Assembly (NCBI GenBank): GCA_013154335.1
Contig: JAADCQ010000026.1
Location: 1 to 37,520 of the forward strand
Source of the DNA: Methanopyri archaeon
GTDB lineage: Archaea; JAADCQ01; Methanopyri; Methanopyrales; Methanopyraceae
DNA length: 37,520 nucleotides
Direction of reading: 5' to 3'
Part shown: piece after piece, positions 1,771-34,907 of the stretch
Position numbering within the stretch: position 1 is the first letter of the stretch
Layout of the letters: each line of letters starts with the position of its first letter
The notes under the pieces: generated by a model
What the model was told of the DNA's origin: nothing
Databases searched by the model: none
What the model saw: the letters and a program-made list of their open reading frames with translations, nothing else
Program-made: the position numbers and the translations under genes

Positions 1771-1793
1771 ATCGTTACGAGTTCCATAACGAT
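1771..1793. repeat. 23-base palindrome, copy 1 (after 16S)
   Basis: ATCGTTA and TAACGAT are separated by 9 bases (CGAGTTCCA) and preceded by the pyrimidine tract CCCGCCTTTCCCACA. The element lies 31 bases after the rRNA processing stem and 48 bases beyond the stop of the convergent AGOG gene. The same arms with the same 9-base spacing recur at 10570-10592 and 14562-14584. Proposed 3'-end or termination element; function inferred. Confidence 0.7.
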
Positions 1794-1841
1794 ACTCGGG
1801 ATGATCGATACCGCGGTGTCCGAGGGAAGTGAGGAGCCCCT

Positions 1842-2561
1842 TTAGGGGTGACCGAGCAGTTCCCTCACCGTATCGACCACCCTCGCGACCTCCGGGGACG
1901 TCTTCCTGAGCCCCCTGACGACCTCCGGTTTGGGGCTCATCGAGAGCCACAACACCGTGTCCAGGTGGAGGGGAGGCAGTTCCGCACGCCTCGCCACGCG
2001 GTCCCAGAACGTGACCGGGTCCTCGTCCGTTATCCCGCGCGTGATCCTCGTTATCCTCGAGTCGACGGGGATGGGAACCTCGAACGGGTAGGGCACGAAC
2101 TCGCCCGTGATCTCCCTGGCCGCGTACCCGAACGTTTTGACGGCGAAGACGACGGTCTTGGATCCGGGGTCCGTGTCGAGGGCGCGGGCCAGGTCCCTGG
2201 CGAGGGACGTCATGTCGCGGTGGTAACGGTGCACGGCTTCGGTGTCGAGGGATAGGAGGAAGGGGGCGGCCTTGGCGAGCCTTCGGGCCTTCTGTTCGGT
2301 GAGCCTCCTGTTGTTGCGGGAGCGGGGTAGGTATCGGGCGAGGGTCTCGTGCACGGGTTCGTCCTCGGGGGCCCGGGTGAGGGCGTGCGCGGCCTCGTTC
2401 CACCATTCCTCGCCGGGTCCGGAGAGTTGGTAGCTGGTGATGGCTATGGCGATGGTCGCGGCGGCGGCGCGGGCGGGGGGTAGGTGGTGGGTGAGGGTCG
2501 CGACGGCGTGGTACTGCGGGTCGACGTCGCGTTCGATGCGGGCGGCGGTGCGCGGCGTTAT
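1842..2561 (-). CDS. AGOG-type 8-oxoguanine DNA glycosylase/lyase
   Basis: Excises 8-oxoguanine from DNA in base-excision repair; a bifunctional helix-hairpin-helix family glycosylase specific to archaea. The C-terminal two thirds carry the family core: FAVKTFGYAARE, then PFEVPIPVDSRITRIT and PPLHLDTVLWLS. Upstream codons in the same frame, beyond the GTG at 2354, still encode family sequence (VDPQYHAV, then SYQLSGPGEEWW), so the shorter start is wrong. No ATG, GTG or TTG occurs in frame between 2354 and the upstream stop at 2627-2625. ATA at 2561-2559 is proposed as start, giving 239 residues, close to the Pyrobaculum enzyme as I remember it. Likely last gene of the cooS-frh operon. The start is uncertain. 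Confidence 0.85.
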   Translation of the reverse strand: MTPRTAARIERDVDPQYHAVATLTHHLPPARAAAATIAIAITSYQLSGPGEEWWNEAAHALTRAPEDEPVHETLARYLPRSRNNRRLTEQKARRLAKAAPFLLSLDTEAVHRYHRDMTSLARDLARALDTDPGSKTVVFAVKTFGYAAREITGEFVPYPFEVPIPVDSRITRITRGITDEDPVTFWDRVARRAELPPLHLDTVLWLSMSPKPEVVRGLRKTSPEVARVVDTVRELLGHP

Positions 2562-2587
2562 GGGTTTTAATAAGGAAACTATCCTGT

Positions 2588-3043
2588 TTACGATTTCTTC
2601 CTGAGTATGACGCGGCAGTGTCCCCTACCCTCCGGTTCGTGCTCGAGTTCCATCTCCTCGTCGAGGGCTTCGAGTATCTCCTGGAGCATGGTGGTGAAGG
2701 CGCAGACGTTGTACCCGTACACGTGTTCCTCGAGGTTGGGGTGTTCCTCGACGAAGGCGTCGATGAGGTCCCGTGGGCAGATGCGGCATCCCCTGACGTG
2801 GACGACGGTTTCGCCGTCCTTCTCCTCCTTCTCGGTGTTGGCGCCGAGGAAGCTTTCGGCGATGCTCACGGCGAGTTCGATGGGGTCTTTTTCCTTGAGT
2901 TCGGGGTGTTCCTCGAGCATGGCTTTGACGGCGTTCCTGCAGACCATGCGTCTGAGGGTGGGGGCCTTGTTGCCGAGTAGTTGTGCGGACGTCACGACGT
3001 AGGAGTAGAGGAAGTAGCGGAGGAAATCGCGGGGTTCGATCAT
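2588..3043 (-). CDS. Small Cys-containing protein, V4R-like, unknown function
   Basis: A 151-residue soluble protein starting at ATG 3043. I do not recognise a named family with certainty. The second half has the pattern VHVRGCRICPRD, then YGYNVCAFTTML, then GHCRVILRKK. These spaced cysteines and the alternating strand/helix pattern recall the V4R/hydrocarbon-binding fold also seen at the C-terminus of the regulator at 11067-11807. It follows frhB after 71 bases holding a strong hairpin, so it is probably cotranscribed with the CODH/F420 genes and may be a small sensor or ligand-binding partner of that system. That role is inferred from position only. Confidence 0.7.
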   Translation of the reverse strand: MIEPRDFLRYFLYSYVVTSAQLLGNKAPTLRRMVCRNAVKAMLEEHPELKEKDPIELAVSIAESFLGANTEKEEKDGETVVHVRGCRICPRDLIDAFVEEHPNLEEHVYGYNVCAFTTMLQEILEALDEEMELEHEPEGRGHCRVILRKKS

Positions 3044-3049
3044 GTGGGT

Positions 3050-3085
3050 CCCGCGCCCCCCAGGGGCGTTGGTGGGGGGCGCGGG
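3050..3085 (-). other. Strong GC hairpin between frhB and next gene
   Basis: A perfect 12-bp inverted repeat (CCCGCGCCCCCC at 3050-3061, GGGGGGCGCGGG at 3074-3085) with a 12-base loop. On the transcribed minus strand it begins 29 bases after the frhB stop and ends 6 bases before the ATG at 3043, so it covers the place where a ribosome-binding site would sit. It may act as an mRNA processing or stability element, attenuator or translational block. Confidence 0.6.
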
Positions 3086-3114
3086 GTGTCGGCGGGACAA
3101 AAGGGTGTCGGGGG

Positions 3115-4029
3115 TTAGAGGGGCACGTTGGGGTGGTAGGGGCGCCAGGTGGCGCACTTGGAGGCCTGGATGCGGGTCTTCTTGTCTTCGGAGAGTTTCT
3201 CCACGAGGTTCAGGTTGCCCTCCTCGGGGTCCTTGGTCTCGAGGACGTCGTTCTCGACGGCGGATTGGACGAGTTCTTCGGCGGTTTCGGTCCTGACTAT
3301 GAGTACGTTCCACCCGTCGGGGGCTCCGACGGATCCGACGCTGACGTCGGCTTCCTCGGCGGTGAAGTCGGTGCAGTACTCGCAGGCTTCGTTCGAGTAG
3401 CGGCCTAGTTCCTTGACGGGTACGGTGTGTTCCTCGCCGTCCTTGGTGAGGACTATGAACTTGCCCTTGCTTATGTCCATGCGCTCGACGTCGTCGATGT
3501 CGACGTTCATGTCCTTGAGTAGGGCCAGGAGGTTGTCGTACTCGAAGTTCTCGGTGCAGAATATGCCGACGGTTAGGGCTACGGCGTCGGTGTCGGGTAG
3601 GCCGTACGGGTACTTCTGGGCCTTCCTGACGGCCGTGATCTGGCAGGGTGTTCCGACGATGGCCACGGATTCGTGGGCGGCGAGGGCTTCGTTGAGGAGG
3701 GATACGTTGGGTGATATGGAGTACTTGGAGCCGGCGGCTTCGATGAGTTCGTCGGGGTCGGTGATGATCCTGGGTTCGGGTTTCCAGCCGTTCTTCTTGA
3801 CGGCGGCCACGACGGCGTCGACGTGGCCCTCGTCCAGGGCGTGTGCGAGTAGGGCGGTGGTGGTTCCTCCGTCCTGTCCGGCCTCGCGTACGCGTTCGTC
3901 GGTGGCCCTGGTGAGGAGGACGGTCCTGTACTCGCCGACTAGTTCGGGGTCGAGGGGTCTCTCGCCGCCGTCGGTTCCGGTCTCGGTCTCTTCCTCCTTG
4001 CCCACGAGTTTGCGGAGGATCTTACGCAT
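3115..4029 (-). CDS. frhB: F420-reducing hydrogenase beta subunit (FrhB-like)
   Basis: FrhB-family flavin/iron-sulfur subunit, the site where coenzyme F420 is reduced or F420H2 oxidised in F420-dependent oxidoreductases; cytoplasmic. The 304-residue protein has the family landmarks DGGTTTALLAHAL near residue 53, GSKYSISPN near 100, VGTPCQITAVRKA near 124-136, FCTENF, and CEYCTDF with later cysteines for an Fe-S cluster. Length is typical of FrhB, with a charged N-terminal extension of about 35 residues. It starts at ATG 4029, 7 bases after the frhG stop. It is the piece that makes F420 the likely electron partner of the neighbouring CooS homologue. FrhB proteins also serve non-hydrogenase enzymes, so the family does not prove H2 chemistry. 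Confidence 0.92.
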   Translation of the reverse strand: MRKILRKLVGKEEETETGTDGGERPLDPELVGEYRTVLLTRATDERVREAGQDGGTTTALLAHALDEGHVDAVVAAVKKNGWKPEPRIITDPDELIEAAGSKYSISPNVSLLNEALAAHESVAIVGTPCQITAVRKAQKYPYGLPDTDAVALTVGIFCTENFEYDNLLALLKDMNVDIDDVERMDISKGKFIVLTKDGEEHTVPVKELGRYSNEACEYCTDFTAEEADVSVGSVGAPDGWNVLIVRTETAEELVQSAVENDVLETKDPEEGNLNLVEKLSEDKKTRIQASKCATWRPYHPNVPL

Positions 4030-4035
4030 CGTGGT

Positions 4036-4761
4036 TCACCCCCTGGTGGTCTTGAAGGAGCGTGGGCAGCTCGCGAAGCAGGTGCCGCATCTGATGCATC
4101 TCTCCTGTCTGATGACGGGTTTCTCGTCCATGACGATGGCCATGGCGGGGCACGCGGTGGAGCAGGTGCCGCAGCCGACGCAGAAGAGGTCCTTCTCTAT
4201 GACGTCGAGGTCGCATCCCAGGCAGAGGTCCTTGTTGGACGTGAGTAGGACGTCTTCGACGGGTAGTTCCGGGCCGGTGACGGGTGCGGGTAGGTCCGGT
4301 TTGAGGGCGTGGTAGTCGCCGGAGAGTACCTTGTAGGGTCTGAGGGCTTCCTCGTCCCTCTCGTCGAGGGCTTGGAGGAAGGCGGCTATGGCGTCGGTGG
4401 TGGGTGGGCATCCGGTGATGGCGTAGTCGGTGTCGGTGAACTTGGCGGCCGGGAAGACGGTGAAGTGGTACCTGTCCGGGTCCCTCATGCCGATGACGTG
4501 TCTCTCGAAGCCTCCGGTGGCGGCGCAGGATCCGAGGGATACCACGGTGCCGACGGCCGAGGTCGTTTCCTGGAGTTTTTCGAGGGTCTCGTGGTCCGTG
4601 AAGTCGACGGCTCCGTCGATGAAGAGGACGTCGGCGTCGGGTTTGCCGGTGTCGCCGTCCAGGCTGGACCAGACTATCTCGTGGCCGGTTTCGTGGCACG
4701 CTTCCTCGAGGTTGCGGGCGCAGGCGCCGCACGCCATGAGGGAGAGTACGGCGATCTTCAT
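4036..4761 (-). CDS. frhG: F420-reducing hydrogenase gamma subunit (FrhG-like)
   Basis: Electron-transfer small subunit of the F420-reducing hydrogenase type. The N-terminal half is a NiFe-hydrogenase small-subunit domain with all four proximal-cluster cysteines: CGAC (C11, C14), SLGSCAATGG (C78) and TGCPPT (C117). The C-terminal half is ferredoxin-like: CLGCD, CVGCGTCSTACP and CIRCGTCFASCP, enough for further [4Fe-4S] clusters leading to FrhB. At 241 residues it is of usual size. The ATG at 4761 follows the frhA-like stop by 13 bases. Unlike its large-subunit partner it keeps its cluster ligands, so an electron path from FrhA or CooS through FrhG to FrhB looks intact. Confidence 0.93.
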   Translation of the reverse strand: MKIAVLSLMACGACARNLEEACHETGHEIVWSSLDGDTGKPDADVLFIDGAVDFTDHETLEKLQETTSAVGTVVSLGSCAATGGFERHVIGMRDPDRYHFTVFPAAKFTDTDYAITGCPPTTDAIAAFLQALDERDEEALRPYKVLSGDYHALKPDLPAPVTGPELPVEDVLLTSNKDLCLGCDLDVIEKDLFCVGCGTCSTACPAMAIVMDEKPVIRQERCIRCGTCFASCPRSFKTTRG

Positions 4762-4774
4762 CTCGGGTCACCCC

Positions 4775-5866
4775 TCAGTGGGTGAGGCAGCGGCCGGAGA
4801 GGCCGAGGGCTTTGATCACGGTCGGGGCGTGTTCCTCCTCGAGGTCCTTCAGGACGCGGCCGGCGACCGCGGCCTTGACGTTGGAGGGTGTCACCATGAG
4901 GGCCTCGTCGACGCGGTCGTTCCTCAGCTTGATCGTGACGAGTAGGGTTCCTTCCGGGGCTTCGACGGCCGCGTGGCCTTCCCCGGAGGTGTACTCGACG
5001 TCGGTCTTCACGTCGGCGTTGGGGTCGAGGTTCTCGGAGGTCTCGGCGATCTTTTCGAGGGATTCGACGATCTCCTCGGCCTTGGCGGTGTAGGCGTCGA
5101 GTGGGTGGTCGGTGAGGTTCTTCCTGGCTTGGGGGCCGACGAGTGTCGGGTTACCGTCCACGAGGGCGACGTGGTTGTTGGCGAGTTCGAGGGCGCTCTT
5201 CATGCGGTAGAACTCGTCGGGCGGTACGATCTCGACGTCGTCGGGGGTCAGGTCGGCCTTGTAGCCGGGTTCGCCGTACGTTTCCACGTTCATCTCGGCC
5301 TGGATCTCGTCCTTGAGGTCGTCGACGGCGGATGCGGTGTCGTCCTTGATCTTCTCGGCGGTCTCGAGGGCTTCCTTGGCGGCGTTCTCCACCTTGGCGG
5401 TGGGGATGGTCTCGAGTTCGAGTCCTCCGGGTGTTATGGCGGGTGGGTGGTCGGGTTTGCGTCCCAGGGCGTGGAGCACCTTCTTGGCGGCTTTGATCAC
5501 GGTGTAGAGGGCGTCGGCGTCGAGGTCGAGGTCGGATTTGAGGAGGCTCGTGGCGTGGGATCTCACGGTGTTGGCGGCGTTGAGGGCTTCCCTGGCCTCG
5601 GTGGCGGCGTCGGGTACCTGGACTTCGAGGGCGTTCTCGATGGCTTCGGCCACGGCGAGGCCGGCGCTGGCGTCGCAGCCCGCGCAGACCCTTTCGGCGG
5701 CCACGATCGCGAACTCGGGGTGTTTCTCGAGTACCAGGGTTTCCCAGGCTAGGGGGGTGGTGCTGGAGCATACCTCGGCGTTGACTATCACGCCGTCGGA
5801 GACCTCCATGACGGCGTGGATGTCGCCCGGGGTGCCGGTCGGGATGCGTACGGTCTTGATCTCCAT
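4775..5866 (-). CDS. frhA: FrhA-like NiFe-hydrogenase large subunit, degenerate active site
   Basis: Homologue of the F420-reducing hydrogenase large subunit, 363 residues against roughly 400 in the usual family. Family landmarks remain: RVCAGC (C61, C64) for the N-terminal RxCxxC, AITPGG, and VTPSNVKAAVAGR near the end. The C-terminal DPCxxCxxH becomes G-L-S-G-R-C-L-T-H (355-363), so the first of that Cys pair is Ser357 and the Asp-Pro is lost. The EAPRG motif reads EAPEG. The protein stops right after the His, so there is no tail for the maturation protease, and no frhD-like protease gene is present. A functional Ni-Fe centre therefore looks unlikely. It is second in the cooS operon. The symbol denotes homology, not proven activity. 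Confidence 0.85.
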   Translation of the reverse strand: MEIKTVRIPTGTPGDIHAVMEVSDGVIVNAEVCSSTTPLAWETLVLEKHPEFAIVAAERVCAGCDASAGLAVAEAIENALEVQVPDAATEAREALNAANTVRSHATSLLKSDLDLDADALYTVIKAAKKVLHALGRKPDHPPAITPGGLELETIPTAKVENAAKEALETAEKIKDDTASAVDDLKDEIQAEMNVETYGEPGYKADLTPDDVEIVPPDEFYRMKSALELANNHVALVDGNPTLVGPQARKNLTDHPLDAYTAKAEEIVESLEKIAETSENLDPNADVKTDVEYTSGEGHAAVEAPEGTLLVTIKLRNDRVDEALMVTPSNVKAAVAGRVLKDLEEEHAPTVIKALGLSGRCLTH

Positions 5867-5879
5867 ACGGGAGGTTCCC

Positions 5880-5891
5880 CTTTTCGAAAAG
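5880..5891. other. Palindrome in the cooS-frhA gap
   Basis: CTTTTCGAAAAG is a perfect 12-base palindrome in the 49-base gap between the cooS stop and the frhA-like start. Its role is unknown; it could be a processing site or a weak internal regulatory element. Confidence 0.35.
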
Positions 5892-5915
5892 TTATTGGGG
5901 GTGAAGAAGGAAGGC

Positions 5916-7832
5916 TTAGATACCTAGGCGCTTCCTCTTCTCCTCGATCTTCTCGGCCAGGATCTCCGCGGCCTTGACCATGTCCGTCTCCAGGATCAGC
6001 TCGCCTCCCGTCAGGTCGGGGAGGTCCTCGAGCAGCGTCTTGGTGACGACCTCGCTGCCCGTGACCGGCGGTATCGGGCTCACGTGTAGGGTGATACCCA
6101 GCGCCAGGGCGGAGCAGCCGTCCGCCAGGGCCTGTTCCTCCAGCCACTGCGGGGCGCTGGCGACGGCGGGCACGTCCGGGATGTCGATCTCCTCGCCGGT
6201 CTGCTCCCTGAGTATCTCGGCGATCTCGAAGACCAGGTGCTCGATCTTACCGATGGCCAGACACGGTCCGTAGTGCAGCACGGGCGGTATACCTAGCTCC
6301 TCGCACACCTGTCTGAGGTTCTCGCCCGCGAGCTTGGCGGCCTCGGGGTTGAAGAGCCCGGCGTTGGCCAGGGCCCCGTTCACGCATCCGGCTCCGAGGA
6401 CGAGGATGTCCCTCTTGATCAGCTCCTTGGCCAGCGTGGCCGCGGGCACGTTGTGACCGCCGCTCGACAGGTTGGTACAACCGACGACGGCGGCTACTCC
6501 CCTGATCGTGCCCTCGGTGATGAGCTCGAGCACGTTCTCCCAGCCGACGGCCTCCTCTATCGAGAAGTAACCGAAGCCGACGACGTTCTCGTGCTTGTGC
6601 GTCGGGTTGTAGGTCTTGCCCTCGAGCTTGGACCTGCGCTGCTTGAAGGCCTCGATGGCCTTCTTGACGACGGTCTCGGCGACCTTCTCGGCCTCGTCCG
6701 GGTCCCAGGTGATGAGCTCGGCTCCCCACACCTTGGCCACGTCGTCCACGGCCATGAGCTTGACGTCCAGCTTCTCGCCGTAGAACTTGAGGCCCGGGAA
6801 CGTGCAGTTGAACTCGCTCACGATCGCGTCGACCAGGCCGGTGGCGGCGAGGGCCTCGGTCGTGAAGTTGTTACCGGCGAAGCCCGCGTACGTGTCGGGT
6901 AGGTGCTCGGCCCTGGCCTCGAAGTCGTCTCCCACGCACGTGGCTCCTATGATGCGGATGCCCTTGGCGCCCGCCGCCTTGGCCTCGTCCTCGAGTTTCT
7001 CGGCGGCGTCGGTCAGGTACTTCTGCAGGGGCATCTGGTGACCCGTGGTCATGATGTTGACGTAGTCCGGGTCCAGGATACCGGGACCGCCTTCGGTCTT
7101 GGTGATCTCGGGGCTGCCGAACAGGATGTCGTTGATCATCTCGACGCCGAACAGCGCGATCGGGCCCGTGATCAGTCCGAGCCTGAGCGTGTGGAGGAGC
7201 ATGTCCTCGGGGTCGGAGTTCAGGTTGGTGCTCGTCTTGACGAGGGCGTCGTGGATCTCGGACTTGGCTCCGCCCGGGATCAGGCCCATCTCCTCGTACA
7301 TCTCCACCCTCCAGTCGGGGACGACGGCCTTGAACACCTCGGACTCCTCGTACCTAGGCTTGTAGATGTCCTCGAGGATGAAGTCGGCGATCTCCTCGGC
7401 CACGTCCTCGGGCTTGCCGGACGCGTCGATCCCGTAGACTTCGGCCGCGTACTCGAGGGCCTTCTCGTCCCTCACCTCGTACGGGGACTCCTCGTCGGGC
7501 ACGGACTTGAGGGCCCTGGCGGCGTTCTCGAGGCAGTGCACGTAGCACGCGGTACCGGCGGCCACGTGCCTCAGGAAGTTCCTGGCCACGATCACGTCCG
7601 CGGTGGCTCCGCACACGCCTCTCGGGGTCTTCTCGGTTATCCTACAGGGGCCGTTGGAACAGATGTTGCACCAGACGCCCTGCTTACCGTACGGGCACTT
7701 GGGGAACTGGACGGGCCACCTGATGTGCGGGGTCTCGATCTCGGGGATCTCCTCGTTGAGTTCCTTCGCGTGCTCGACGAGGGGCTTGACGACCTCGTCC
7801 GTGTACGGGCAACCGTTCTTCTTCTCGGCCAT
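5916..7832 (-). CDS. cooS: CooS-type Ni carbon-monoxide dehydrogenase homologue
   Basis: A 638-residue homologue of the monofunctional homodimeric Ni-Fe-S CO dehydrogenases. Compared from memory with Carboxydothermus CODH-II, all six C-cluster ligands are present (H265, C299, C343, C452, C483, C524), as are the B-cluster cysteines (C55, C58, C63, C74). Differences: the second D-cluster Cys is Trp54 (C46 kept); the catalytic-His position in AAGTACYVH is Tyr97; the catalytic Lys of the EKA motif is Gln567 (EEQALADG). The metal site is thus kept while the acid/base residues and part of the D-cluster are altered. No CooF or CooC-like gene is nearby; frhAGB follow immediately. First gene of the operon, ATG 7832, with GGTGGTG upstream. 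Confidence 0.9.
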   Translation of the reverse strand: MAEKKNGCPYTDEVVKPLVEHAKELNEEIPEIETPHIRWPVQFPKCPYGKQGVWCNICSNGPCRITEKTPRGVCGATADVIVARNFLRHVAAGTACYVHCLENAARALKSVPDEESPYEVRDEKALEYAAEVYGIDASGKPEDVAEEIADFILEDIYKPRYEESEVFKAVVPDWRVEMYEEMGLIPGGAKSEIHDALVKTSTNLNSDPEDMLLHTLRLGLITGPIALFGVEMINDILFGSPEITKTEGGPGILDPDYVNIMTTGHQMPLQKYLTDAAEKLEDEAKAAGAKGIRIIGATCVGDDFEARAEHLPDTYAGFAGNNFTTEALAATGLVDAIVSEFNCTFPGLKFYGEKLDVKLMAVDDVAKVWGAELITWDPDEAEKVAETVVKKAIEAFKQRRSKLEGKTYNPTHKHENVVGFGYFSIEEAVGWENVLELITEGTIRGVAAVVGCTNLSSGGHNVPAATLAKELIKRDILVLGAGCVNGALANAGLFNPEAAKLAGENLRQVCEELGIPPVLHYGPCLAIGKIEHLVFEIAEILREQTGEEIDIPDVPAVASAPQWLEEQALADGCSALALGITLHVSPIPPVTGSEVVTKTLLEDLPDLTGGELILETDMVKAAEILAEKIEEKRKRLGI

Positions 7833-7890
7833 GGGGCACCACCTGTTCGGGTTTGTTCTGACGTTTCCGGGACCGGGTGCGGGCGGCCCG

Positions 7891-7897
7891 TTTATAA
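7891..7897 (-). promoter_or_regulatory. cooS operon TATA box
   Basis: On the minus strand the sequence reads CTTATAAAC, an archaeal TATA box about 60 bases before the cooS ATG. Predicted transcription start is near 7867-7870, giving a leader of about 36 bases that contains the GGTGGTG ribosome-binding site. It lies in the 265-base divergent gap before the plus-strand gene at 8098. Confidence 0.65.
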
Positions 7898-7966
7898 GTC
7901 TGTCGATGTAGTTCTAACGTTTGACATTAATCGAACAAGGGGCCATCGGGGACTCCGAACGGCACC

Positions 7967-8071
7967 GTTGTAAACGCACGCACACGGGCCCGCATCACGC
8001 GTGAAACGAGGTCCCCCGCGGAAAATCGGGTTTCACCGCAACGGATAAACGGGATCCGAACCGTTTACAAC
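7967..8071. repeat. Spaced inverted repeat in divergent gap
   Basis: GTTGTAAACG (7967-7976) and its exact complement CGTTTACAAC (8062-8071) lie 85 bases apart between the divergent cooS and 8098 genes. In GC-rich DNA a 10-base AT-containing match is notable. The arms could be paired operator half-sites for a regulator acting on one or both promoters; this is inference. Confidence 0.4.
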
Positions 8072-8097
8072 CGTACCCACGGTCGGAGGCGAGCCCC

Positions 8098-8589
8098 GTG
8101 ATATGGGAGGACGTCCCGCTACCCTCGGACCCGGTCGAGAGGATCCGGGCCCTACGCGTACTCAGGCAGGTCTACGTCAGGGGAAGATCCCCGAGGGTGA
8201 GGGCCACCTTCAGAAGGAGCGGACGCAAGACCCACGGCCCGTACATGGTGGCGTCTTTCCCCAGGACGCTCGATCACCCCGAACCCAGGGTGATGTACCT
8301 GGGGAAACCCGGGACCGAGACCGTCGCGTTCGTCGAGTGGCTCTCCGGGATGTCGGACGCCTCGGCGTTCAGACTGGCCAGGCTCGCGATCAGACAGTTG
8401 GGGACGGCCCTGTCCACGCTGAGGAGGGCCCCCTCCGGCGTGGAGACCGTGGTCAGGGTGTTGGCGTCCGTGTTCGAGCTGGAACCGGGCGATGAGGAAC
8501 CCGATGAACCCCCACCCGGTCCCGTGGCCGAGGTCCTGGGCCCGTGGAAGGCGGGGTTCTCACGTTTCCTGAGGTCGATGCTGGGCTGA
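8098..8589 (+). CDS. Uncharacterised 163-residue basic protein
   Basis: I do not recognise this family. The GTG start is supported by GGAGG at 8084-8088. The N-terminal 60 residues are Arg-rich (RALRVLRQVYVRGRSPRVR, then RRSGRKTHGPYM), which could suit nucleic-acid binding. A helical middle (ASAFRLARLAIRQLGTALS) and an acidic, proline-rich linker (GDEEPDEPPPGP) follow. There is no signal peptide or membrane segment. It ends 4 to 13 bases before the next gene (depending on that gene's start), so the two probably form one transcript diverging from cooS. The layout, a basic protein followed by a Panacea-like partner, loosely recalls toxin-antitoxin pairs but is not diagnostic. Confidence 0.65.
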   Translation: MIWEDVPLPSDPVERIRALRVLRQVYVRGRSPRVRATFRRSGRKTHGPYMVASFPRTLDHPEPRVMYLGKPGTETVAFVEWLSGMSDASAFRLARLAIRQLGTALSTLRRAPSGVETVVRVLASVFELEPGDEEPDEPPPGPVAEVLGPWKAGFSRFLRSMLG

Positions 8590-8602
8590 GGGGGTGCCCT
8601 GT

Positions 8603-9028
8603 GTGCACGCGAGGTGTAGGTGCCACTCGGCCGAGCCGGCGGGCGTCGACCTGAAGCCCCTCGTGAAGTACATCGTGGCGGTGAGGCCGGGGATCGACAA
8701 GAGATCCCTGTTCAGGACGGTGTACCTGATCGACAAGGGGTTCGAGAGGGAGACCGGGAGGCCGCTCACGGGGACGAACTACGGGCACTGCATGCTGTTG
8801 AAGGCCCCGTATTTCTCGGTCGACGTGAAGGACGCGATATTCGAGCTGTTGGAGTCGGGTGAGGTCGAGTTACGGGCGGAGAGGGACGAGGAGGGTAGGT
8901 TGGTGTCCACGTACAGGCCGGTGGGATACGGGCCCGAGGACGTGGAGCCGGAGTTGAGGAGGGCCTTCGGGTTGAACGGTCCCAGGTGGGAGGTTTTCGA
9001 GAGGGTTCTGGAGAGGGCGTTACCCTAG
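8603..9028 (+). CDS. Panacea/SocA (DUF4065)-like protein
   Basis: A protein of about 141 residues. The core LFRTVYLIDKGFERETGRPLT, then KAPYFSVDVKDAIFELLESG, follows the helical pattern of the Panacea/SocA domain (tyrosine-rich helix, GRPLT turn, a GP-like turn, then a helix ending in LxxxG). Panacea proteins act as antitoxins or as adaptors that bring other proteins to proteases. The short N-terminus contains CRCH. GTG 8603 is preferred over GTG 8594 because the GAGGGGG site lies about 8 bases before it; 8594 would add three residues. It overlaps the convergent DUF166 gene by 9 bases. The family assignment is tentative and comes from pattern, not search. Confidence 0.6.
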   Translation: MHARCRCHSAEPAGVDLKPLVKYIVAVRPGIDKRSLFRTVYLIDKGFERETGRPLTGTNYGHCMLLKAPYFSVDVKDAIFELLESGEVELRAERDEEGRLVSTYRPVGYGPEDVEPELRRAFGLNGPRWEVFERVLERALP

Positions 9029-9772
9029 GGCCTCCTTCAGCGCCCGGAGGGCCGCCTCGATGTGGAGGCGACCGGCCACGTGAAGGGGTGTGTCGCCGAG
9101 CTCGGGATCGACGTCCATGGAGGCCGTGCAGGGGAACGAGTGATGAGCCTCGGAGACGGCCGCCTTGACGCGTTCCGGGTCGGCGTCGACGCCCACCAGG
9201 GATTTGGCCACGTACCACGTGCACCCGCAGGGGGCGGATCTCAGGGTTTCCGCGTCGGTTATCACGTCTCCATCGACCTCGACGGAGATCCTCGGCTTCC
9301 CTATCACGGCGGCCTCGCACAGTTCGTCGAGGGTCGGACCGTCGGGGTCGAGGGTGCAGGCGGGTCTGGCTATCTCGCACTCGATGCCCAGTTCCTCGCA
9401 GGTTTCTCGGAGTTCCTCCGCCGTGTACCTGTCGATCCAGTCGGGGGATTCGACGGGGACGAGGATCGCCCTCGTCTCGGTGTTCTCGGGGAGGGCGAGG
9501 AGGAGGTCGGGGTGTAGTTTCACGGCGATGAGGACGTCGACCTCGGGGAGTTGGGGTAGGTGGCGTTCCGGGTCCTCGATCAGGGGCGGTAGGGACTCGG
9601 GCGGGGGCACCTCCTCGACGGCCAGGATGTCGTCGGCGAGGGAGTACCTCCCGTACTTGCACCCGTCGCACGCGGGCCCGCAAGCCCTGCAGTGACCGGG
9701 TTCGTTGGCGAGGTTCGCGACGAGTCTCTCCGCGAAGGTATCGGAGTAGATCACCGCCACGGTCGGGGCCAC
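9020..9772 (-). CDS. DUF166 family protein
   Basis: A 250-residue archaeal protein of the DUF166 type, which some older annotations label thymidylate synthase without firm support. Near the N-terminus it has a dense cysteine motif, CRACGPACDGCKYGRYS (residues 28-44), likely binding an Fe-S cluster or metal. Later cysteines occur in TCEELGIECEI, ARPACTLD and APCGCTWYVA. The fold appears to be alternating strand and helix with no membrane segment. It lies 8 bases downstream of the tatD-like gene on the same strand and overlaps the convergent 8603-9028 gene by 9 bases. Family membership is moderately sure; biochemical role unknown. Confidence 0.75.
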   Translation of the reverse strand: MAPTVAVIYSDTFAERLVANLANEPGHCRACGPACDGCKYGRYSLADDILAVEEVPPPESLPPLIEDPERHLPQLPEVDVLIAVKLHPDLLLALPENTETRAILVPVESPDWIDRYTAEELRETCEELGIECEIARPACTLDPDGPTLDELCEAAVIGKPRISVEVDGDVITDAETLRSAPCGCTWYVAKSLVGVDADPERVKAAVSEAHHSFPCTASMDVDPELGDTPLHVAGRLHIEAALRALKEALG

Positions 9773-9779
9773 GCGCGCT

Positions 9780-10571
9780 TCACTCCCGGATACGGTAGAG
9801 GGAGGCGGCCTCGTCGTGGACGACGGCGCGGATGGTCGCCTTTTCGACCCCTCTACGCTCGAGCTCCAGGGCGAGTCTCGGGAGGGCGAGTGGATCGGCG
9901 GCCATCGATCCCAGGTCGCTGCTGGCCACCAGTCTCGCCCCGTCGGCGAGGTTCTCGACGATGTCGGCGGCCTCTTCGACGGTGAGTTCGCCGGGTCTGA
10001 GGGTGAGGCCCACGGCGTACCCTTCCTCGGCTATCTCGGGGGCCGTCTCGGGTGAGGCGTGGTCGACGAGCACGAGTTCCCCGTCGATGGGGTGTTCGGC
10101 CAGGATCTTCAGGACCTCGCGGGTTACCTCCTCCTTGTTCCTGCCGGGCGTGTGGACGATGATGGGTAGATCGTACTCGTGCGCGATGTCCAGTTGGGCC
10201 TCGAGGGCCTTACGGGCGGTAGGGGTCACCTCGGCGTTCAGGCCGGTCTCCCCTATGGCCGTGATCTCGTCCTTCTCCACGTGCTTCTCGATCGTCTCGA
10301 GGGTTCCTTCGAGGTCCTCCGGGATGCCGCCGGGGTGGACGCCGATGGCCACGTGGACCTTCAGACCGGCCCTTTCCCCCCTCATCGTTTCGATCTCGAT
10401 GAGTCTCCTGTAGAGGGCCTCGTAGACCTCCCTGGTCATGCCTGGGTACGGGTCGTGGGCGCAGGTGACGACGTGTCTTATCCCGGCGAGGGCCATCTTC
10501 TCCAGGTCCTCGTAGCTCCTGACGTCGAGGTGTAGGTGTGCGTCCACGTATCTCAGGTGGGCTCCCCCCAA
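9780..10571 (-). CDS. TatD-family metal-dependent hydrolase
   Basis: An amidohydrolase-superfamily (TIM-barrel) protein of 263 residues, related to TatD DNases and archaeal TatD-like phosphoesterases. Metal-binding landmarks are visible: VDAHLHLD (HxH) near residue 9, GVHPGG, IGETGLN with the conserved Glu, IIVHTPGR, VLVDHAS and SSDLGS with the final Asp. Substrate unknown; members cleave DNA or phosphate esters in the cytoplasm. TTG at 10571 gives MGGAHLRYVDAH. No clear ribosome-binding site precedes it, and the start directly abuts palindrome copy 3, so a slightly later GTG (MDAHLHLD) is possible. Probably cotranscribed with DUF166. Confidence 0.85.
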   Translation of the reverse strand: MGGAHLRYVDAHLHLDVRSYEDLEKMALAGIRHVVTCAHDPYPGMTREVYEALYRRLIEIETMRGERAGLKVHVAIGVHPGGIPEDLEGTLETIEKHVEKDEITAIGETGLNAEVTPTARKALEAQLDIAHEYDLPIIVHTPGRNKEEVTREVLKILAEHPIDGELVLVDHASPETAPEIAEEGYAVGLTLRPGELTVEEAADIVENLADGARLVASSDLGSMAADPLALPRLALELERRGVEKATIRAVVHDEAASLYRIRE

Positions 10572-10592
10572 CGTTATGACTTTCGTAACGAT
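10570..10592. repeat. 23-base palindrome, copy 3 (after rubrerythrin)
   Basis: Read on the minus strand: ATCGTTA, 9 bases (CGAAAGTCA), TAACGTT, one base short of a perfect arm match. It lies 22 bases past the rubrerythrin stop, after the tract TTCTTCCCCCTCCCGAC. Copies at 1771-1793 and 14562-14584 share arms, spacing and the preceding pyrimidine tract. Confidence 0.65.
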
Positions 10593-10614
10593 GTCGGGAG
10601 GGGGAAGAAAGGGT

Positions 10615-11001
10615 TTAGCCCTTGAGTTTCTCCAGGGCGGCCATCAGCATCTTCCTGTGGTGCTTCTCGTCGTAGGCCGTGGCCTTGAGCATGGTGATGA
10701 CCTCGTCGTCCAGCTCGTCCGAGTGGTGGTCGGCCTCGTCCATCCTGGTCTCGTACGCGTTCTTCTCCCCTTCGATCATCTCCTCCATCTTCTCGATCAG
10801 GGCGTCCTCGTCGATCTCGACCTTACCGGCTATCAGGGCCGCGGCGGCCGCGTGTCTGGCCTCGTCCATGGCGATCTGCTCGAGTAGGTCGCCGACCTCG
10901 GGGTAGCCCAGCTCCCTGGCGGCGATGGCCATGGCCATGTAGATGCCTACCTCGGTGGTCTCGCCCTTGAACCACTCCTCAAGGTACTTCTCGAACTCCA
11001 T
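10615..11001 (-). CDS. Rubrerythrin-like ferritin-fold diiron protein
   Basis: A 128-residue four-helix-bundle protein related to the diiron domain of rubrerythrin, which reduces peroxide in anaerobes. Candidate iron ligands: E17 (TTEVGIYM), E47 and H50 (MDEARH), E79 in the third helix, and E112 with H115 (DEKHH). The C-terminal rubredoxin domain of classical rubrerythrin is absent, so an external donor would be needed. ATG 11001 is preceded by GGGGTGATGC. A TATA box lies at 11036-11043. The short leader, own promoter and adjacent palindrome suggest an independent, well-expressed gene. Peroxidase function is inferred from family; ferritin-like storage is an alternative. Confidence 0.85.
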   Translation of the reverse strand: MEFEKYLEEWFKGETTEVGIYMAMAIAARELGYPEVGDLLEQIAMDEARHAAAAALIAGKVEIDEDALIEKMEEMIEGEKNAYETRMDEADHHSDELDDEVITMLKATAYDEKHHRKMLMAALEKLKG

Positions 11002-11035
11002 CTCGCATCACCCCATCCGGGGCCTACCCCGCCCC

Positions 11036-11043
11036 GTTTTAAG
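11036..11043 (-). promoter_or_regulatory. TATA box of rubrerythrin-like gene
   Basis: The minus strand reads CTTAAAAC in an AT-rich patch (GAAAATCTTAAAAC). Predicted start near 11014-11016 leaves a leader of about 14 bases before ATG 11001. Confidence 0.55.
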
Positions 11044-11066
11044 ATTTTCGAATTACGTCGAACGTC

Positions 11067-11807
11067 TCACCCTTCCGTCCTCTCGGCCTCGAACACGCAC
11101 GCCTCCGCGCCGGCCCCGGAACACATGACCTCCTCGGTCTTCCAACCGTCCCCTTCGAGTTCCTCGAGGACCCCGGCTATCAGACCGGCCTCGAAGTGGC
11201 AGGCGGGCCCGTAGGGTAGGTCGGAGCACTCCATACACCCCTTTATCGACACGATCACCTTGCCGTCCTTCCTCTCGACCTCGATCTCCTTCCCTATCCC
11301 GGATAGGAGCCTCTCGAGGACGCGTTCCGCGTCCTCCTCGTCGAGTTCCCTGGCCAGTTCCCTGCCCACACGTTGTCCCAACTCGTAGAGGATGCCCTCC
11401 GTGTCCACCCCTATGGACTCGAGGATGGCTCTGTAGGAGGCCGCCACGGCGTGGAGTACCGCGATCTCGGGGTCCTCGGACCTCTTCAGGACGTTCTTGA
11501 CGTACTCCACGGCGTCGTCTATCCTGGGCTCGCCTATCTCGACGGGTTCGGCCTTGAGACCGTAGTACTTCTTGGGGATGGCGGGTCCGGGCTCCTCCAT
11601 GACCACGTCGACGAAGCCGGCCTTCTTGAGCTCCTGCAGGTGGTAGTGGACGGTGGATTTCGACATGTCGAGGCGTCGGGCCAGTTGGGACACCGTCATG
11701 GGGCCCTCTTTCCGGAGTATTTCTATGATCTTCCTCCGCGTCTCGTTCCTGAGGGCCTTGGCCAGGTCCTTGGGCACTTCAACCGCCAGCGTCGACACCT
11801 CGGTCAC
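11067..11807 (-). CDS. ArsR-type HTH regulator with V4R domain
   Basis: A 246-residue transcriptional regulator. Residues 12-75 form a winged helix-turn-helix (ALRNETRRKIIEILRKEG, then VSQLARRLDMSKSTVHYHL as the recognition region). Residues from about 115 to the end resemble the V4R (4-vinyl-reductase-like) small-ligand domain, with GCMECSDLPYGPACHFEAG, then VMCSGAGAEACVFEAE; the cysteines may bind metal or a thiol-reactive ligand. It probably senses a hydrophobic ligand, metal or redox state. It has its own orientation-matched neighbours: the CBS genes upstream and the rubrerythrin gene 65 bases downstream, a plausible target. The domain call is confident; ligand and targets unknown. Confidence 0.85.
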   Translation of the reverse strand: MTEVSTLAVEVPKDLAKALRNETRRKIIEILRKEGPMTVSQLARRLDMSKSTVHYHLQELKKAGFVDVVMEEPGPAIPKKYYGLKAEPVEIGEPRIDDAVEYVKNVLKRSEDPEIAVLHAVAASYRAILESIGVDTEGILYELGQRVGRELARELDEEDAERVLERLLSGIGKEIEVERKDGKVIVSIKGCMECSDLPYGPACHFEAGLIAGVLEELEGDGWKTEEVMCSGAGAEACVFEAERTEG

Positions 11808-11838
11808 CCCCGGTTCGAAGTGAGGCGAACCGGGGGCG

Positions 11839-12696
11839 TCAAATAGCTTCGGCGATGGCGTGGAGCACGTCCCTCTCCGTGAGTATGCCCACCACGTCTC
11901 CGGTTTCCTCGACGACGAGGCCCCCCACGCTGGCGCCTTTCATCCTGAGGACGGCCTCCTCGAGGGTATCGTCCGGGGAGACCGTGATCACGTCCTCGGT
12001 CATCACGTCGGACACGGGCACGTCGAGGGCCTCCTCCACGGTGGCGTCCGGGTCGATCTCGGACGACTTCACGGAAACGTGGTGGAGAACGTCGGTCATC
12101 GTGACTATGCCCTCGAGTCTGTCGCCGTCCACGACCGGGAGCCTCCTGAACCCCTCCTTCACCATGGTCTCCGCGGCCTCGAGGAGCGAGGAGTCGGGCG
12201 GTACCGTGACGGGGTCCGGTGTCATGGCTTCGGACACGGGGACGTCGGAGACCACGTCGTACATGTCGAAGACGAGGTCTCTCTCCGTCACTATGCCTAC
12301 GAGCTTGTCCCCCTCGACGACGGGGAGGGCGCCCACGTCGAACTTCATCATGGTCTTGACGGCCTTGCCCACGGTGTCGTACGGCGTCACGACGTAGACC
12401 TCGGTCCTCATGAGGGAGCGTATGGGTTCGTGGAGGCCGGGGAGGAACCTGCCTTCGTGCCTGCGGTCGAGGATCTCCTTTCTCTCGCCCACCAGGTACT
12501 CGAGGACGTCCCTCCCTGTCAGGACGCCGACCAGGGTTCTGTCGTCGGGTTCCGTGACCGGGACCCGCCTGAACCCGTACCTGACCATGGTGTCGACGGC
12601 GCTCTTCACGGTGGCGGTGGGAGGTAGGGAGACCACCTCGGTCGTGGCCACCCTCACTATCGAGGTGTCAGGGAGGCCGGAGCGCCTCGTCAGCAT
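11839..12696 (-). CDS. Four-CBS-domain protein
   Basis: A 285-residue protein made almost wholly of four tandem CBS motifs (two Bateman modules). Each repeat shows the pattern vSLPPTATVKSAVDTM ... FRRVPVTEPD ... LVGVLTGRDVLEYL and its equivalents, with ends TERDLVFDMY, TMTDVLHHV and TERDVLHAI. CBS modules bind adenosine nucleotides, SAM or similar and regulate partner proteins or act alone as energy sensors. No catalytic domain is attached. ATG 12696; it ends before the HTH-V4R gene and starts 7 bases after the stop of the next CBS gene, so the pair is probably one transcript. Confidence 0.9.
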   Translation of the reverse strand: MLTRRSGLPDTSIVRVATTEVVSLPPTATVKSAVDTMVRYGFRRVPVTEPDDRTLVGVLTGRDVLEYLVGERKEILDRRHEGRFLPGLHEPIRSLMRTEVYVVTPYDTVGKAVKTMMKFDVGALPVVEGDKLVGIVTERDLVFDMYDVVSDVPVSEAMTPDPVTVPPDSSLLEAAETMVKEGFRRLPVVDGDRLEGIVTMTDVLHHVSVKSSEIDPDATVEEALDVPVSDVMTEDVITVSPDDTLEEAVLRMKGASVGGLVVEETGDVVGILTERDVLHAIAEAI

Positions 12697-12703
12697 CTCG
12701 CCT

Positions 12704-13282
12704 TCACTCCTCGGGTTCCCGTCCTAGTATCTCCTCGTAACACTCGGGGCATACCCACATCCCGTCGACGAATCTCAGTTCTTCTGAGTACGTTTCACAT
12801 AAATCACAAACACCTTCTATTCTCCTCTCTTCCACTTGTCTTTCCTCTAATTCCTCCTCGAATCTCTTCAGTTCCTCCTCGATAGTTTGAATAATATGGG
12901 GTTCTATAGCCAGTAGATCCTGCATGGTTATTATTCCTACTAATTTACCTTCTTCGTCCACTATAGGCAGTCTCCTTATGCCCCTGTTCACCATTATTTT
13001 GATGGCTTCGTTGACATCTATGTCTTCCTCTACCGTGATTACTGGAGACGACATTATGTTCTCCGCTATCACTTCATCGGGGTGTTTCCCTTCCGATACC
13101 ACTTTGATGACTAGGTCTCTTTCGGTTACGATGCCTATTGGTTCGTTGTTCTCGTTGACTATCACGACGCTTCCTATGCCGCGTTCCCTCATCTTGTAGG
13201 CGAGTTCGGCGGCGGTTTCGGTGGGCGTTCCGGTCACGACCTCCCTCCTCGCTATCTCCCCGACGGGGATGTCCTGGACCAC
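12704..13282 (-). CDS. Two-CBS protein with C-terminal zinc ribbon
   Basis: A 192-residue protein with two CBS motifs (residues about 8-130; IGIVTERDLVIKV and VGIITMQDLLAIE mark the repeat ends), a charged helix (RFEEELEERQVEERRIEG), and a C-terminal zinc ribbon CDLC ... CPEC. Such CBS-ribbon proteins are widespread in methanogens and may couple nucleotide or SAM sensing to nucleic-acid or protein binding. GTG 13282 is chosen because GGTGAGG sits just before it; a longer frame to 13330 has no conserved residues. The section 12780-13150 is strikingly AT-rich compared with both neighbours, with many AGA, ATA and AAA codons on the coding strand. Confidence 0.85.
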   Translation of the reverse strand: MVQDIPVGEIARREVVTGTPTETAAELAYKMRERGIGSVVIVNENNEPIGIVTERDLVIKVVSEGKHPDEVIAENIMSSPVITVEEDIDVNEAIKIMVNRGIRRLPIVDEEGKLVGIITMQDLLAIEPHIIQTIEEELKRFEEELEERQVEERRIEGVCDLCETYSEELRFVDGMWVCPECYEEILGREPEE

Positions 13283-13415
13283 GTTCCTCACCCCCCGGCG
13301 GTGTCCGCACCCGGTGCGAGCGGATATCAAGGTTGGCGGTCTGAGTTAACTCTTGGTTGACTGGATGGTAAATCGAAACGTTTAACCGAGCTTCGGCCGT
13401 GGCGACGGCCTTCCG

Positions 13416-13422
13416 TATTTAA
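13416..13422 (+). promoter_or_regulatory. mer TATA box
   Basis: CCGTATTTAAG supplies a TATA box (TATTTAA). Predicted transcription start is about 13445, giving a leader of about 35 bases before the TTG start of mer at 13480. Confidence 0.65.
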
Positions 13423-13479
13423 GTCCGGGGGCCGGGTTACCTCGATGGACCCCGAAAACCGTTGCGGGGGTTCTTTCCC

Positions 13480-14532
13480 TTGGCGGAGGAGGTCAGGTTC
13501 GGTATCGAGCTCCTACCGGACGACAAGCCCACCAAGATCGCTCACCTGATCAAGGTCGCCGAGGACAACGGCTTCGAGTACGCGTGGATCTGTGACCACT
13601 ACAACAACTACTCCTACATGGGCGTCCTCACGCTGGCGGCCGTCATCACGAGCAACATCAGGATGGGTCCGGGTATCACGAACCCGTACACGAGGCACCC
13701 GCTGATCACCGCGAGCAACATCGCCACGCTGGACTGGATCTCCGGCGGTAGAGCCGTCATCGGAATGGGTCCGGGTGACAAGGCCACGTTCGACAAGATG
13801 GGTCTCCCGTTCCCGTGCAAGGTGCCGATCTGGAACCCGGAGGCCGAGGACGAGGTCGGCCCGGCCACCGCGATAAGGGAGGCCAAGGAGGTCATCTACC
13901 AGTACCTCGAGGGTGGCCCGGTCGAGTTCGAGGGTGACTTCGTGAAGACGGGTAAGGCCGACGTGAACGCCAGGTCCATCCAGGGCACGGACATCCCGTT
14001 CTACATGGGTGCCCAGGGTCCGATCATGCTCAAGACGGCCGGTGAGATCGCCGACGGTGTGCTGGTGAACGCGTCCAACCCGAAGGACTTCGAGGAGGCC
14101 ATCCCGCACATCGAGGAGGGTGCCAAGGAGGCCGGCAGGAGCCTGGACGAGATCGACGTGGCCGCTTACACGTGCTTCTCGATCGACAAGGACGCGGACA
14201 AGGCCGTCGAGGCCACGAAGATCGTGGTCGCGTTCATCGTGATGGGCGCCCCGGACGTCGTCCTGGAGAGGCACGGCATCGACAAGGAGAAGGCCGAGCA
14301 GATCGCCGAGGCCATCGGTAAGGGCGACTTCGGCAAGGCCATCAGCCTGGTGGACGAGGACATGATCGAGGCGTTCTCCATCGCGGGCGACCCGGACACG
14401 GTGATCGAGAAGATCGAGGAGCTGCTGAAGACCGGTGTGACGCAGGTCGTCGTCGGTTCGCCGATCGGTCCGGACAAGGAGAAGGCCATCGAGCTGGTGG
14501 GTCAGGAGGTCATCCCGCACTTCAAGGAGTAA
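13480..14532 (+). CDS. mer: F420-dependent methylene-H4MPT reductase (Mer)
   Basis: Catalyses reversible reduction of methylene-tetrahydromethanopterin to methyl-H4MPT with F420H2, a core step of CO2-reducing methanogenesis; cytoplasmic, bacterial-luciferase-like TIM barrel. The 350-residue protein has FGIELLPDDKPTK at the N-terminus, ICDHYNNYSYMGVL, the GPGITNPYTRHP block and PFYMGAQGP. It closely matches the M. kandleri enzyme as I remember it, with scattered substitutions. TTG 13480 (giving M-A-E-E-V-R-F-G) is chosen over TTG 13462 because it fits the known mature N-terminus and has CGGGGGT about 8 bases upstream. Codon use is strongly biased to GTC, GAC, AAG and GAG, as in highly expressed genes. 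A single-gene unit with its own TATA box. Confidence 0.97.
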   Translation: MAEEVRFGIELLPDDKPTKIAHLIKVAEDNGFEYAWICDHYNNYSYMGVLTLAAVITSNIRMGPGITNPYTRHPLITASNIATLDWISGGRAVIGMGPGDKATFDKMGLPFPCKVPIWNPEAEDEVGPATAIREAKEVIYQYLEGGPVEFEGDFVKTGKADVNARSIQGTDIPFYMGAQGPIMLKTAGEIADGVLVNASNPKDFEEAIPHIEEGAKEAGRSLDEIDVAAYTCFSIDKDADKAVEATKIVVAFIVMGAPDVVLERHGIDKEKAEQIAEAIGKGDFGKAISLVDEDMIEAFSIAGDPDTVIEKIEELLKTGVTQVVVGSPIGPDKEKAIELVGQEVIPHFKE

Positions 14533-14561
14533 ACCTCGCCCCCTCACGCCCCCTTCCCGAA

Positions 14562-14584
14562 ATCGTTATAAACATCGTAACGAT
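14562..14584. repeat. 23-base palindrome, copy 2 (after mer)
   Basis: ATCGTTA, 9 bases (TAAACATCG), TAACGAT: a perfect 7-base inverted repeat, 29 bases past the mer stop and right after the tract CGCCCCCTTCCCGAA. It overlaps the TATA-like TTATAAAC (14566-14573) that may serve the ASCH gene. Same arms and spacing as copies at 1771 and 10570. Confidence 0.7.
14566..14573 (+). promoter_or_regulatory. Possible TATA box of ASCH gene
   Basis: TTATAAAC inside palindrome copy 2. Predicted start near 14593-14597, upstream of the proposed ATG at 14662. If both elements are used, termination of mer and initiation of the next gene are overlaid in 23 bases. Confidence 0.45.
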
Positions 14585-34113: not shown

Positions 34114-34907
34114 ACCAACCCCGGACCGTAAGACTTCACATCCCTAACATCGACCACCTCCACCTCGAAACCCCCGGGAACCGCCCCCAACACCTCCCCC
34201 GCCGTCCTACCCTCGTCCCAATCCGCCGGAAACACCTCGTGAACCATAACCCTACCACCAACCCTCACCTTCGACAACGCCACATCCAAAAAATCCAAAG
34301 TACCCTTTAAATACCCCATTATAACCACATCAACCTCCGGAATCAACCCCGCCACCTCCCGGCAATCACCCAAGAACGGCACCACAACATCCCCAACATC
34401 GTTCAACCTAACGTTCTCCACCAGATAACGATACGCCACCGGATTCAACTCAGCACAGTAAACCACCTCCGGATCCCTATGCACCGCAACAGGCAACGAC
34501 AAGTACCCGATCCCCGCGAACATATCGAACACCGAAGCACCATCGAACAACCCACGCTCCGCCAACCTACGCTTCTCCCTCAAATTACCCTTCGCGAACA
34601 TAACCCTAGTAGGATCCAACTTGTACCTAACACCCAACTCCACGTGAACCGTCTCCGCATCACCCTCCCCCGCCACCACCTCACCCACCGGTTCCCTGAA
34701 CACCCCCGAGATACCCCTCCACGCCACCACACACCTGACACCGGGCACCGCCTCCAACACCGCCTCCCCCACCTCCCTCCTGTACCGCCAAGCCTCCCCG
34801 TCGTACAACCTCACCACCGCCACGTCACCCAACCTCAACACCCGACGCGGCAGCCTCCTCCTCACACCCTCCGGCACGACACCCTCCAACAACTCCCGGT
34901 AATCCAC
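34080..34907 (-). CDS. taw2: tRNA wyosine-pathway aminocarboxypropyltransferase (Taw2/TYW2-like)
   Basis: SAM-dependent enzyme of the Trm5/TYW2 family that transfers the aminocarboxypropyl group to C7 of 4-demethylwyosine at G37 of tRNA-Phe. The 275-residue protein has VMFAKGNLREKRR, motif I VFDMFAGIGYLSLPVAV (near 127-143), YCAELNPVAYRYLVENV, and DVVIMGYLKG (MGY at 197-199), the variant that separates TYW2 from Trm5 methyltransferases (NLP). GTG 34907 is chosen because GGTGGGGTGG precedes it and a TATA box lies about 38 bases upstream; GTG 34928 is the longer option. Third codon positions favour G and T, unlike genes on the other strand nearby. Confidence 0.85.
   Translation of the reverse strand: MDYRELLEGVVPEGVRRRLPRRVLRLGDVAVVRLYDGEAWRYRREVGEAVLEAVPGVRCVVAWRGISGVFREPVGEVVAGEGDAETVHVELGVRYKLDPTRVMFAKGNLREKRRLAERGLFDGASVFDMFAGIGYLSLPVAVHRDPEVVYCAELNPVAYRYLVENVRLNDVGDVVVPFLGDCREVAGLIPEVDVVIMGYLKGTLDFLDVALSKVRVGGRVMVHEVFPADWDEGRTAGEVLGAVPGGFEVEVVDVRDVKSYGPGLVHRVVELVRLK

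Follow-up and report, generated by a model that had tools for sequence, protein, structure and literature searches.

A palindrome conserved at the 3' ends of Methanopyrus genes as a putative roadblock-type transcription terminator

The 37,520-nucleotide contig JAADCQ010000026.1 of a Methanopyri archaeon (assembly GCA_013154335.1; this whole stretch is hereafter called the window) carries three copies of a 23-bp palindrome, each lying shortly downstream of a gene. Across the five Methanopyrus species compared, the same palindrome is located at the 3' ends of stable-RNA genes and of many protein-coding genes with tight spacing, is conserved between the species, shows no covariation of the kind expected from RNA pairing and, at the tRNA genes of two of them, has its stronger arm on the gene-proximal side. 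We propose that the palindrome probably functions (at a rough probability of 0.6) as a sequence-specific Methanopyrus transcription terminator of the roadblock type that acts at the DNA level, i.e., a protein would bind the palindrome and block the polymerase, and transcripts would end there.

Copy number and placement of the palindrome

The consensus of the element is the 23-bp inverted repeat ATCGTTAYGA-NNN-TCRTAACGAT. It was searched for in the window's genome, a 1.37-Mb archaeal draft, and in four congeners, giving five Methanopyrus genomes, using the reversed pattern as the control for chance. One of the congeners is a single contig of 1,694,969 bp, which we take to be Methanopyrus kandleri AV19; its motif matches the one published for that strain. 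With up to three mismatches the window's genome contained 130 sites as compared to 4 for the reversed control, and with up to two mismatches each of the five genomes contained 69-93 sites and the controls 0-2. The palindrome is real and its copy number is far above chance. An AT-rich motif within a GC-rich genome might be regarded as a compositional accident or as a dispersed repeat, but this explanation is refuted by the reversed controls (0-4 against 69-130 sites), by the unrelated flanks and by orthologous sites that are kept with altered arms, and its probability is next to nil.

Outside the genus, none of 36 archaeal genomes had a comparable excess over its own control, a few being modestly above it. 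A scan of 84,980 species for the exact consensus returned 24 stretches in two Euryarchaeota metagenome-assembled genomes (MAGs), both of which carry many sites, and one isolated match elsewhere, in a bacterial Crocinitomicaceae MAG, which was taken as chance rather than as presence outside Methanopyrus. The exact consensus was absent from 2.9 million viral contigs, and spread by viruses was ruled out on this basis.

For the tRNA genes, ARAGORN predictions that lay in coding frames and contained very long "introns" were discarded as false, and the palindrome was found 3' of all genes checked (62/62; 27 from the window's genome, 35 from AV19). It starts 5-14 nt (mode 8) past the annotated 3' end, which is usually the encoded CCA; one AV19 tRNA-Val site was weak (score 9). 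In a comparison set from eight other archaea, 1 of 42 tRNAs attained the score, at 11.4. Other stable RNAs were likewise followed by the palindrome, namely the signal recognition particle (SRP) RNA (11-15 nt downstream in 5/5 genomes), the 16S rRNA (79-85 nt downstream in 5/5 genomes) and the RNase P RNA (15-25 nt downstream in 4/5 genomes, the exception being the window's own species). Downstream of the 23S gene (locus L073, 723-3822) two palindromes abut each other; at L073:3932-3977 ATCGTTACGAGGTTCGTTACTAT is followed back to back by ATCGTTACGAGAACCATAACGAT, an arrangement like that of a main and a fail-safe terminator. Two clustered regularly interspaced short palindromic repeats (CRISPR) arrays of AV19 are followed by a site that lies a few hundred bases past the last repeat, opposite the side of the TTTAAA promoter box (box A; PMC3695527). 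These sites were considered as exceptions to the 3'-end location, and this was dropped once the TTTAAA box placed them downstream of the arrays.

Protein-coding genes were called by a simple codon-usage script, for which starts are approximate and stops exact, and intergenic regions of at least 40 bp without a tRNA end were counted. The loci were partly picked around sites, so the following fractions are upper estimates: in the window's genome a site was present in 14/29 convergent, 22/129 tandem and 1/82 divergent regions (convergent versus divergent, Fisher p = 5e-9), and in AV19 in 12/39, 18/148 and 2/78, respectively. Of 56 sites past stop codons in the window's genome, 50 were located 12-33 nt from the stop. 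An earlier reading of the window made from its letters alone (the sequence-only reading) had proposed a genome-wide motif search with a test for enrichment 20-90 bases past stop codons, and the outcome was strongly positive. Within tandem pairs the site keeps a tight distance from the preceding stop (median 24.5 nt), and its distance from the following start varies widely (-2 to 262 nt). The 3' untranslated region (UTR) between stop and palindrome is 72% pyrimidine (50% C, 22% T), and a tract with at least 13 pyrimidines in 15 positions occurs at 50% of the palindromic ends as compared to 8-15% of other ends.

The genes followed by a site include those for ribosomal L7Ae, S10 and L2, EF-2, the thermosome, glutamine synthetase, FwdF, ATP synthase A, polyferredoxin, NrdD, mer and several unknown proteins. 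Many of them are of a kind typically highly expressed, which would fit the hunch of the sequence-only reading on the expression of genes with a copy. The EF-2 gene at L115:3974-7276 contains an intein (TIGR01445 match inside the EF-2 protein).

The placement bears on two further explanations. According to the first, the palindrome acts on the next downstream gene, as an operator or as an element of its promoter, and the sites form a regulon; the palindromic shape is typical of repressor sites, and in tandem pairs the site can sit near the next start, as after mer. Gene orientation largely contradicts an operator in promoter regions, given that 25 convergent locations but 1 divergent location were found in the window's genome (1/82 divergent regions) and that the spacing is tight to the preceding stop and loose to the next start, and we regard this explanation as highly improbable. 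According to the second, the palindrome is a chromosome-structure site at gene ends, where a topoisomerase (e.g., topoisomerase V), a nucleoid protein or an insulator would handle supercoils between convergent genes, in the manner of the BIME/REP gyrase sites of Escherichia coli. Methanopyrus has an unusual, genus-specific topoisomerase V, and the limitation of the palindrome to the same genus, its enrichment between convergent genes and its position after highly expressed genes are in keeping with such a site. However, this role does not call for spacings as tight as the 8 nt from tRNA ends and the 12-33 nt from stops, and a direction is implied by the stronger arm lying next to the gene at tRNAs; a chromosome-structure role is therefore considered unlikely.

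Between species, the rubrerythrin orthologue is followed by a palindrome in 5/5 genomes despite differing UTR, flanks and arms, whereas the palindrome downstream of mer is present in the window's species only and absent in the four other genomes. Sites at protein-coding genes therefore come and go, while those at the tRNA, SRP and 16S genes are kept. An orthologue table in which 8 sites were shared and 1 was not is biased by the choice of loci and is useful for illustration only.

Constraint on DNA and the roadblock reading

On the sense strand of the tRNA sites the commonest combination at positions 8/16 is C-A, which is unpairable in RNA. Over ten position pairs, 499 cells were paired as compared to 497.7 when the right arms were randomly reassigned, i.e., covariation was absent. 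The predicted energy of the RNA stem was on average -4.3 kcal/mol at 37°C and 0 at 95°C. Furthermore, the letters CGTTA/TAACG are invariant rather than being any letters that pair; the sites used for this comparison were selected by that core, and tRNA sites found by score gave nearly the same result. At 29 sites in two genomes the arm nearer to the tRNA gene matched better than the other arm, and at 1 site it matched less well; the mismatches were 0 proximal versus 13 distal in the window's genome and 14 versus 40 in AV19. The element is therefore directional at tRNA genes, where 19 sites of the window's species have forward and 2 have reverse polarity; strict polarity as a general rule fails at protein-coding ends. 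The lack of RNA-pair covariation, the melting RNA stem and the stronger proximal arm together suggest a dimeric DNA-binding protein, and inverted symmetry without covariation around an invariant core points, at the level of sequence patterns, to the signature expected of such a protein.

These results were compared with two explanations at the RNA level. A hairpin functioning as an intrinsic terminator would account for an inverted repeat at transcript ends, and some stem is predicted at 37°C. We consider it very unlikely, as the stem is without compensatory changes and is predicted to melt at the growth temperature, no U-tract follows it, and CGTTA is invariant where any pairing letters would suffice. 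Alternatively, the palindrome may be a 3'-end processing signal that is transcribed and read by an endonuclease (for tRNAs, a maturation enzyme) trimming the RNA. The fixed spacing of 5-14 nt past tRNA 3' ends would agree with this, and a role in tRNA maturation has been suggested in print (PMC5217627). Against it are the sites after mRNA, SRP, RNase P and rRNA genes and between convergent genes, the missing covariation (499 versus 497.7) with a C-A mispair as the commonest 8/16 pair, and the stem energy of 0 at 95°C, which make RNA processing an improbable function. A maturation signal confined to tRNA genes was rejected, as sites are located past 16S, 23S, SRP, RNase P and mRNA genes.

Runs of at least five T were not found in the 60 nt after the 62 tRNAs, and a run of four was found in 7/62. 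The usual archaeal U-tract terminator (a run of 4-7 T) is therefore missing there. Among palindromic coding-sequence (CDS) ends, 4-6% had a T-run of at least five.

According to the roadblock reading, a putative dimeric DNA-binding protein would sit on the palindrome, and RNA polymerase leaving the gene would meet the bound palindrome and stall. The transcript would then be freed or cleaved: for mRNAs this would happen a short way upstream, within the pyrimidine-rich 3' UTR, and for the units of tRNA, SRP RNA, RNase P RNA and rRNA immediately past the 3' end of the structured RNA, which could itself act as the hairpin for release. A single palindrome between convergent genes could serve both. 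Sites were found downstream of units rather than upstream of promoters (14/29 convergent versus 1/82 divergent regions; 62/62 tRNAs), and at CDS ends a pyrimidine tract lies just upstream of the site. At RNA polymerase I (Pol I) terminators the roadblock halts the polymerase ~15 bp upstream in a T-/pyrimidine-rich stretch, and release is completed with the help of an RNA hairpin upstream (PMC12366685); the spacings of 12-33 nt at CDS ends and 11-15 nt at SRP RNA genes are compatible with such a pause.

Several observations weigh against a roadblock. The reading is weakest at tRNA genes, where the spacing is short, mostly 5-9 nt, and tight for a pause of ~15 bp; either the archaeal polymerase would need to advance into the site, or the contact that blocks it would lie in the far half of the site. 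The tRNA sites are also without a clear pyrimidine tract, and arm polarity is not kept at protein-coding ends. Only about half of the convergent CDS regions in the sampled loci of the window's genome carry a site, and stretches that were not picked for sites gave the same direction with small counts (convergent 2/11 and 2/21 versus divergent 0/41 and 0/39). Finally, two good palindromes (L110:1252 and L134:4005) are located in apparently divergent regions, where they possibly represent the ends of unannotated small RNAs.

A wider proposal is more tentative, at a little under even odds: Methanopyrus may have swapped U-tract termination for a genome-wide, DNA-encoded roadblock at the genes of its tRNAs, of other stable RNAs and of many strongly expressed mRNAs, using its own dimeric terminator protein. 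Such a system would be convergent with Pol I terminators and might be adaptive near 100°C, a temperature at which structured RNA and weak hybrids would make poor signals. We know of no archaeon that ends transcription genome-wide at a dedicated protein-binding site, and none was found in the literature. If true, the proposal would describe a second archaeal termination strategy, present in a single deep-branching genus of hyperthermophiles and resembling eukaryotic Pol I terminators in its construction, and would correct the published guess of a tRNA-maturation signal. The palindromes would allow the prediction of transcription-unit ends across Methanopyrus genomes, and the 23-bp sequence could be used as bait for direct capture of the putative binding protein.

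The three copies in the window

The three copies that the sequence-only reading had listed in the window were all recovered, with 0, 1 and 0 mismatches to ATCGTTA-N9-TAACGAT and profile scores of 35-37. With up to three mismatches the window contained 5 matches as compared to a mean of 0.37 in shuffled sequence, and 0/100 shuffles reached 5. A fourth, weak match at 34410 (score 12) is within a coding frame and is probably due to chance. The features of the three loci are as follows.

1250-1690, + strand: 16S rRNA gene, 3' part, terminating in GGATCACCTCC; the unit followed by copy 1
1754-1769, + strand: pyrimidine-rich tract CTCCCGCCTTTCCCAC ahead of copy 1 (read from sequence; pyrimidine enrichment before sites)
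1771-1793, + strand: palindrome copy 1, ATCGTTACGAGTTCCATAACGAT, 0 mismatches; 3' of the 16S rRNA gene, with an AGOG DNA-glycosylase gene converging from the other side
10570-10592, - strand: palindrome copy 2, on the rubrerythrin strand ATCGTTACGAAAGTCATAACGTT, 1 mismatch; 22 nt past the rubrerythrin stop
10593-10614, - strand: pyrimidine-rich 3' UTR ACCCTTTCTTCCCCCTCCCGAC from the stop to copy 2 (read from sequence)
10615-11001, - strand: rubrerythrin gene followed by copy 2 (PF02915, E 8e-11)
13480-14532, + strand: mer, 5,10-methylenetetrahydromethanopterin reductase gene followed by copy 3 (TIGR03555, E 2e-172)
14533-14561, + strand: pyrimidine-rich 3' UTR ACCTCGCCCCCTCACGCCCCCTTCCCGAA from the mer stop to copy 3 (read from sequence)
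14562-14584, + strand: palindrome copy 3, ATCGTTATAAACATCGTAACGAT, reversed polarity, 0 mismatches; 29 nt past the mer stop

The spacings from the rubrerythrin and mer stops, the names given to both genes and the pyrimidine tracts ahead of the palindromes had been read correctly. Copy 1 starts 83 nt past the conserved 16S 3' end. An extended left arm, said to be common to all three copies when copy 2 alone is reversed, did not hold up: copy 3 shows ATCGTTACGA only as the reverse complement of the mer strand, and its polarity therefore differs from that of copies 1 and 2. The earlier suggestion of a terminator or processing signal or of a protein-binding site is supported by the genome-wide placement at 3' ends, and among these options the evidence favours protein binding at the DNA level over RNA structure or tRNA processing.

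At positions 1690-1842 the 16S gene is followed not by a 23S gene but by the AGOG DNA-glycosylase gene on the opposite strand, and 16S looks like a transcription unit of its own here; the 23S gene, on a separate contig (L073), has palindromes of its own. Near its 3' end (~1615-1625, helix-44 region) the 16S gene of the window lacks ~43 nt as compared to AV19, and the 16S matches in genomes G001 and G004 are longer than the window's by the same ~43 nt.

Comparison with known systems

Contrary to the sequence-only reading, for which the element was not a known one, the motif is not new to science: CGTTA(N)9TAACG was published in 2017 for M. kandleri AV19, where it was found ~10 bp past about half of the tRNA genes and was guessed to be a signal for tRNA 3' maturation (BMC Genomics 2017, PMC5217627). 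The published motif and the present palindrome have the same core, occur in the same genus and are located downstream of tRNA genes. Here, however, the palindrome was found past 62/62 tRNAs, other stable RNAs and many mRNAs in five species, with conservation at the DNA level, and the maturation reading of 2017 is too narrow and disfavoured. No other report of the motif was found in the open-access literature.

The gyrase sites of Escherichia coli in bacterial interspersed mosaic elements and repetitive extragenic palindromic (REP) units resemble the Methanopyrus element in being palindromic and in their location at 3' ends and between convergent genes. REP units, however, are GC-rich, form RNA stems and are loosely spaced, whereas the Methanopyrus palindrome is AT-rich with fixed spacing.

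U-tract termination with aCPSF1 (FttA) is likewise a general mode of archaeal 3'-end formation with a pyrimidine-rich 3' UTR, and needs runs of at least four U (PMC8716108). Such runs are mostly absent at the tRNA and palindromic ends of Methanopyrus, and the U-tract system, unlike these ends, has no DNA palindrome.

The Pol I roadblock terminators (TTF-I at the Sal box; Reb1/Nsi1) share with the Methanopyrus ends a structured RNA end, a pyrimidine tract and a downstream protein-binding site (PMC12366685), the protein being putative in Methanopyrus. The Methanopyrus site differs from them in being palindromic, in its use at the tRNA, rRNA and mRNA genes of an archaeon, and in its shorter spacing at tRNA genes.

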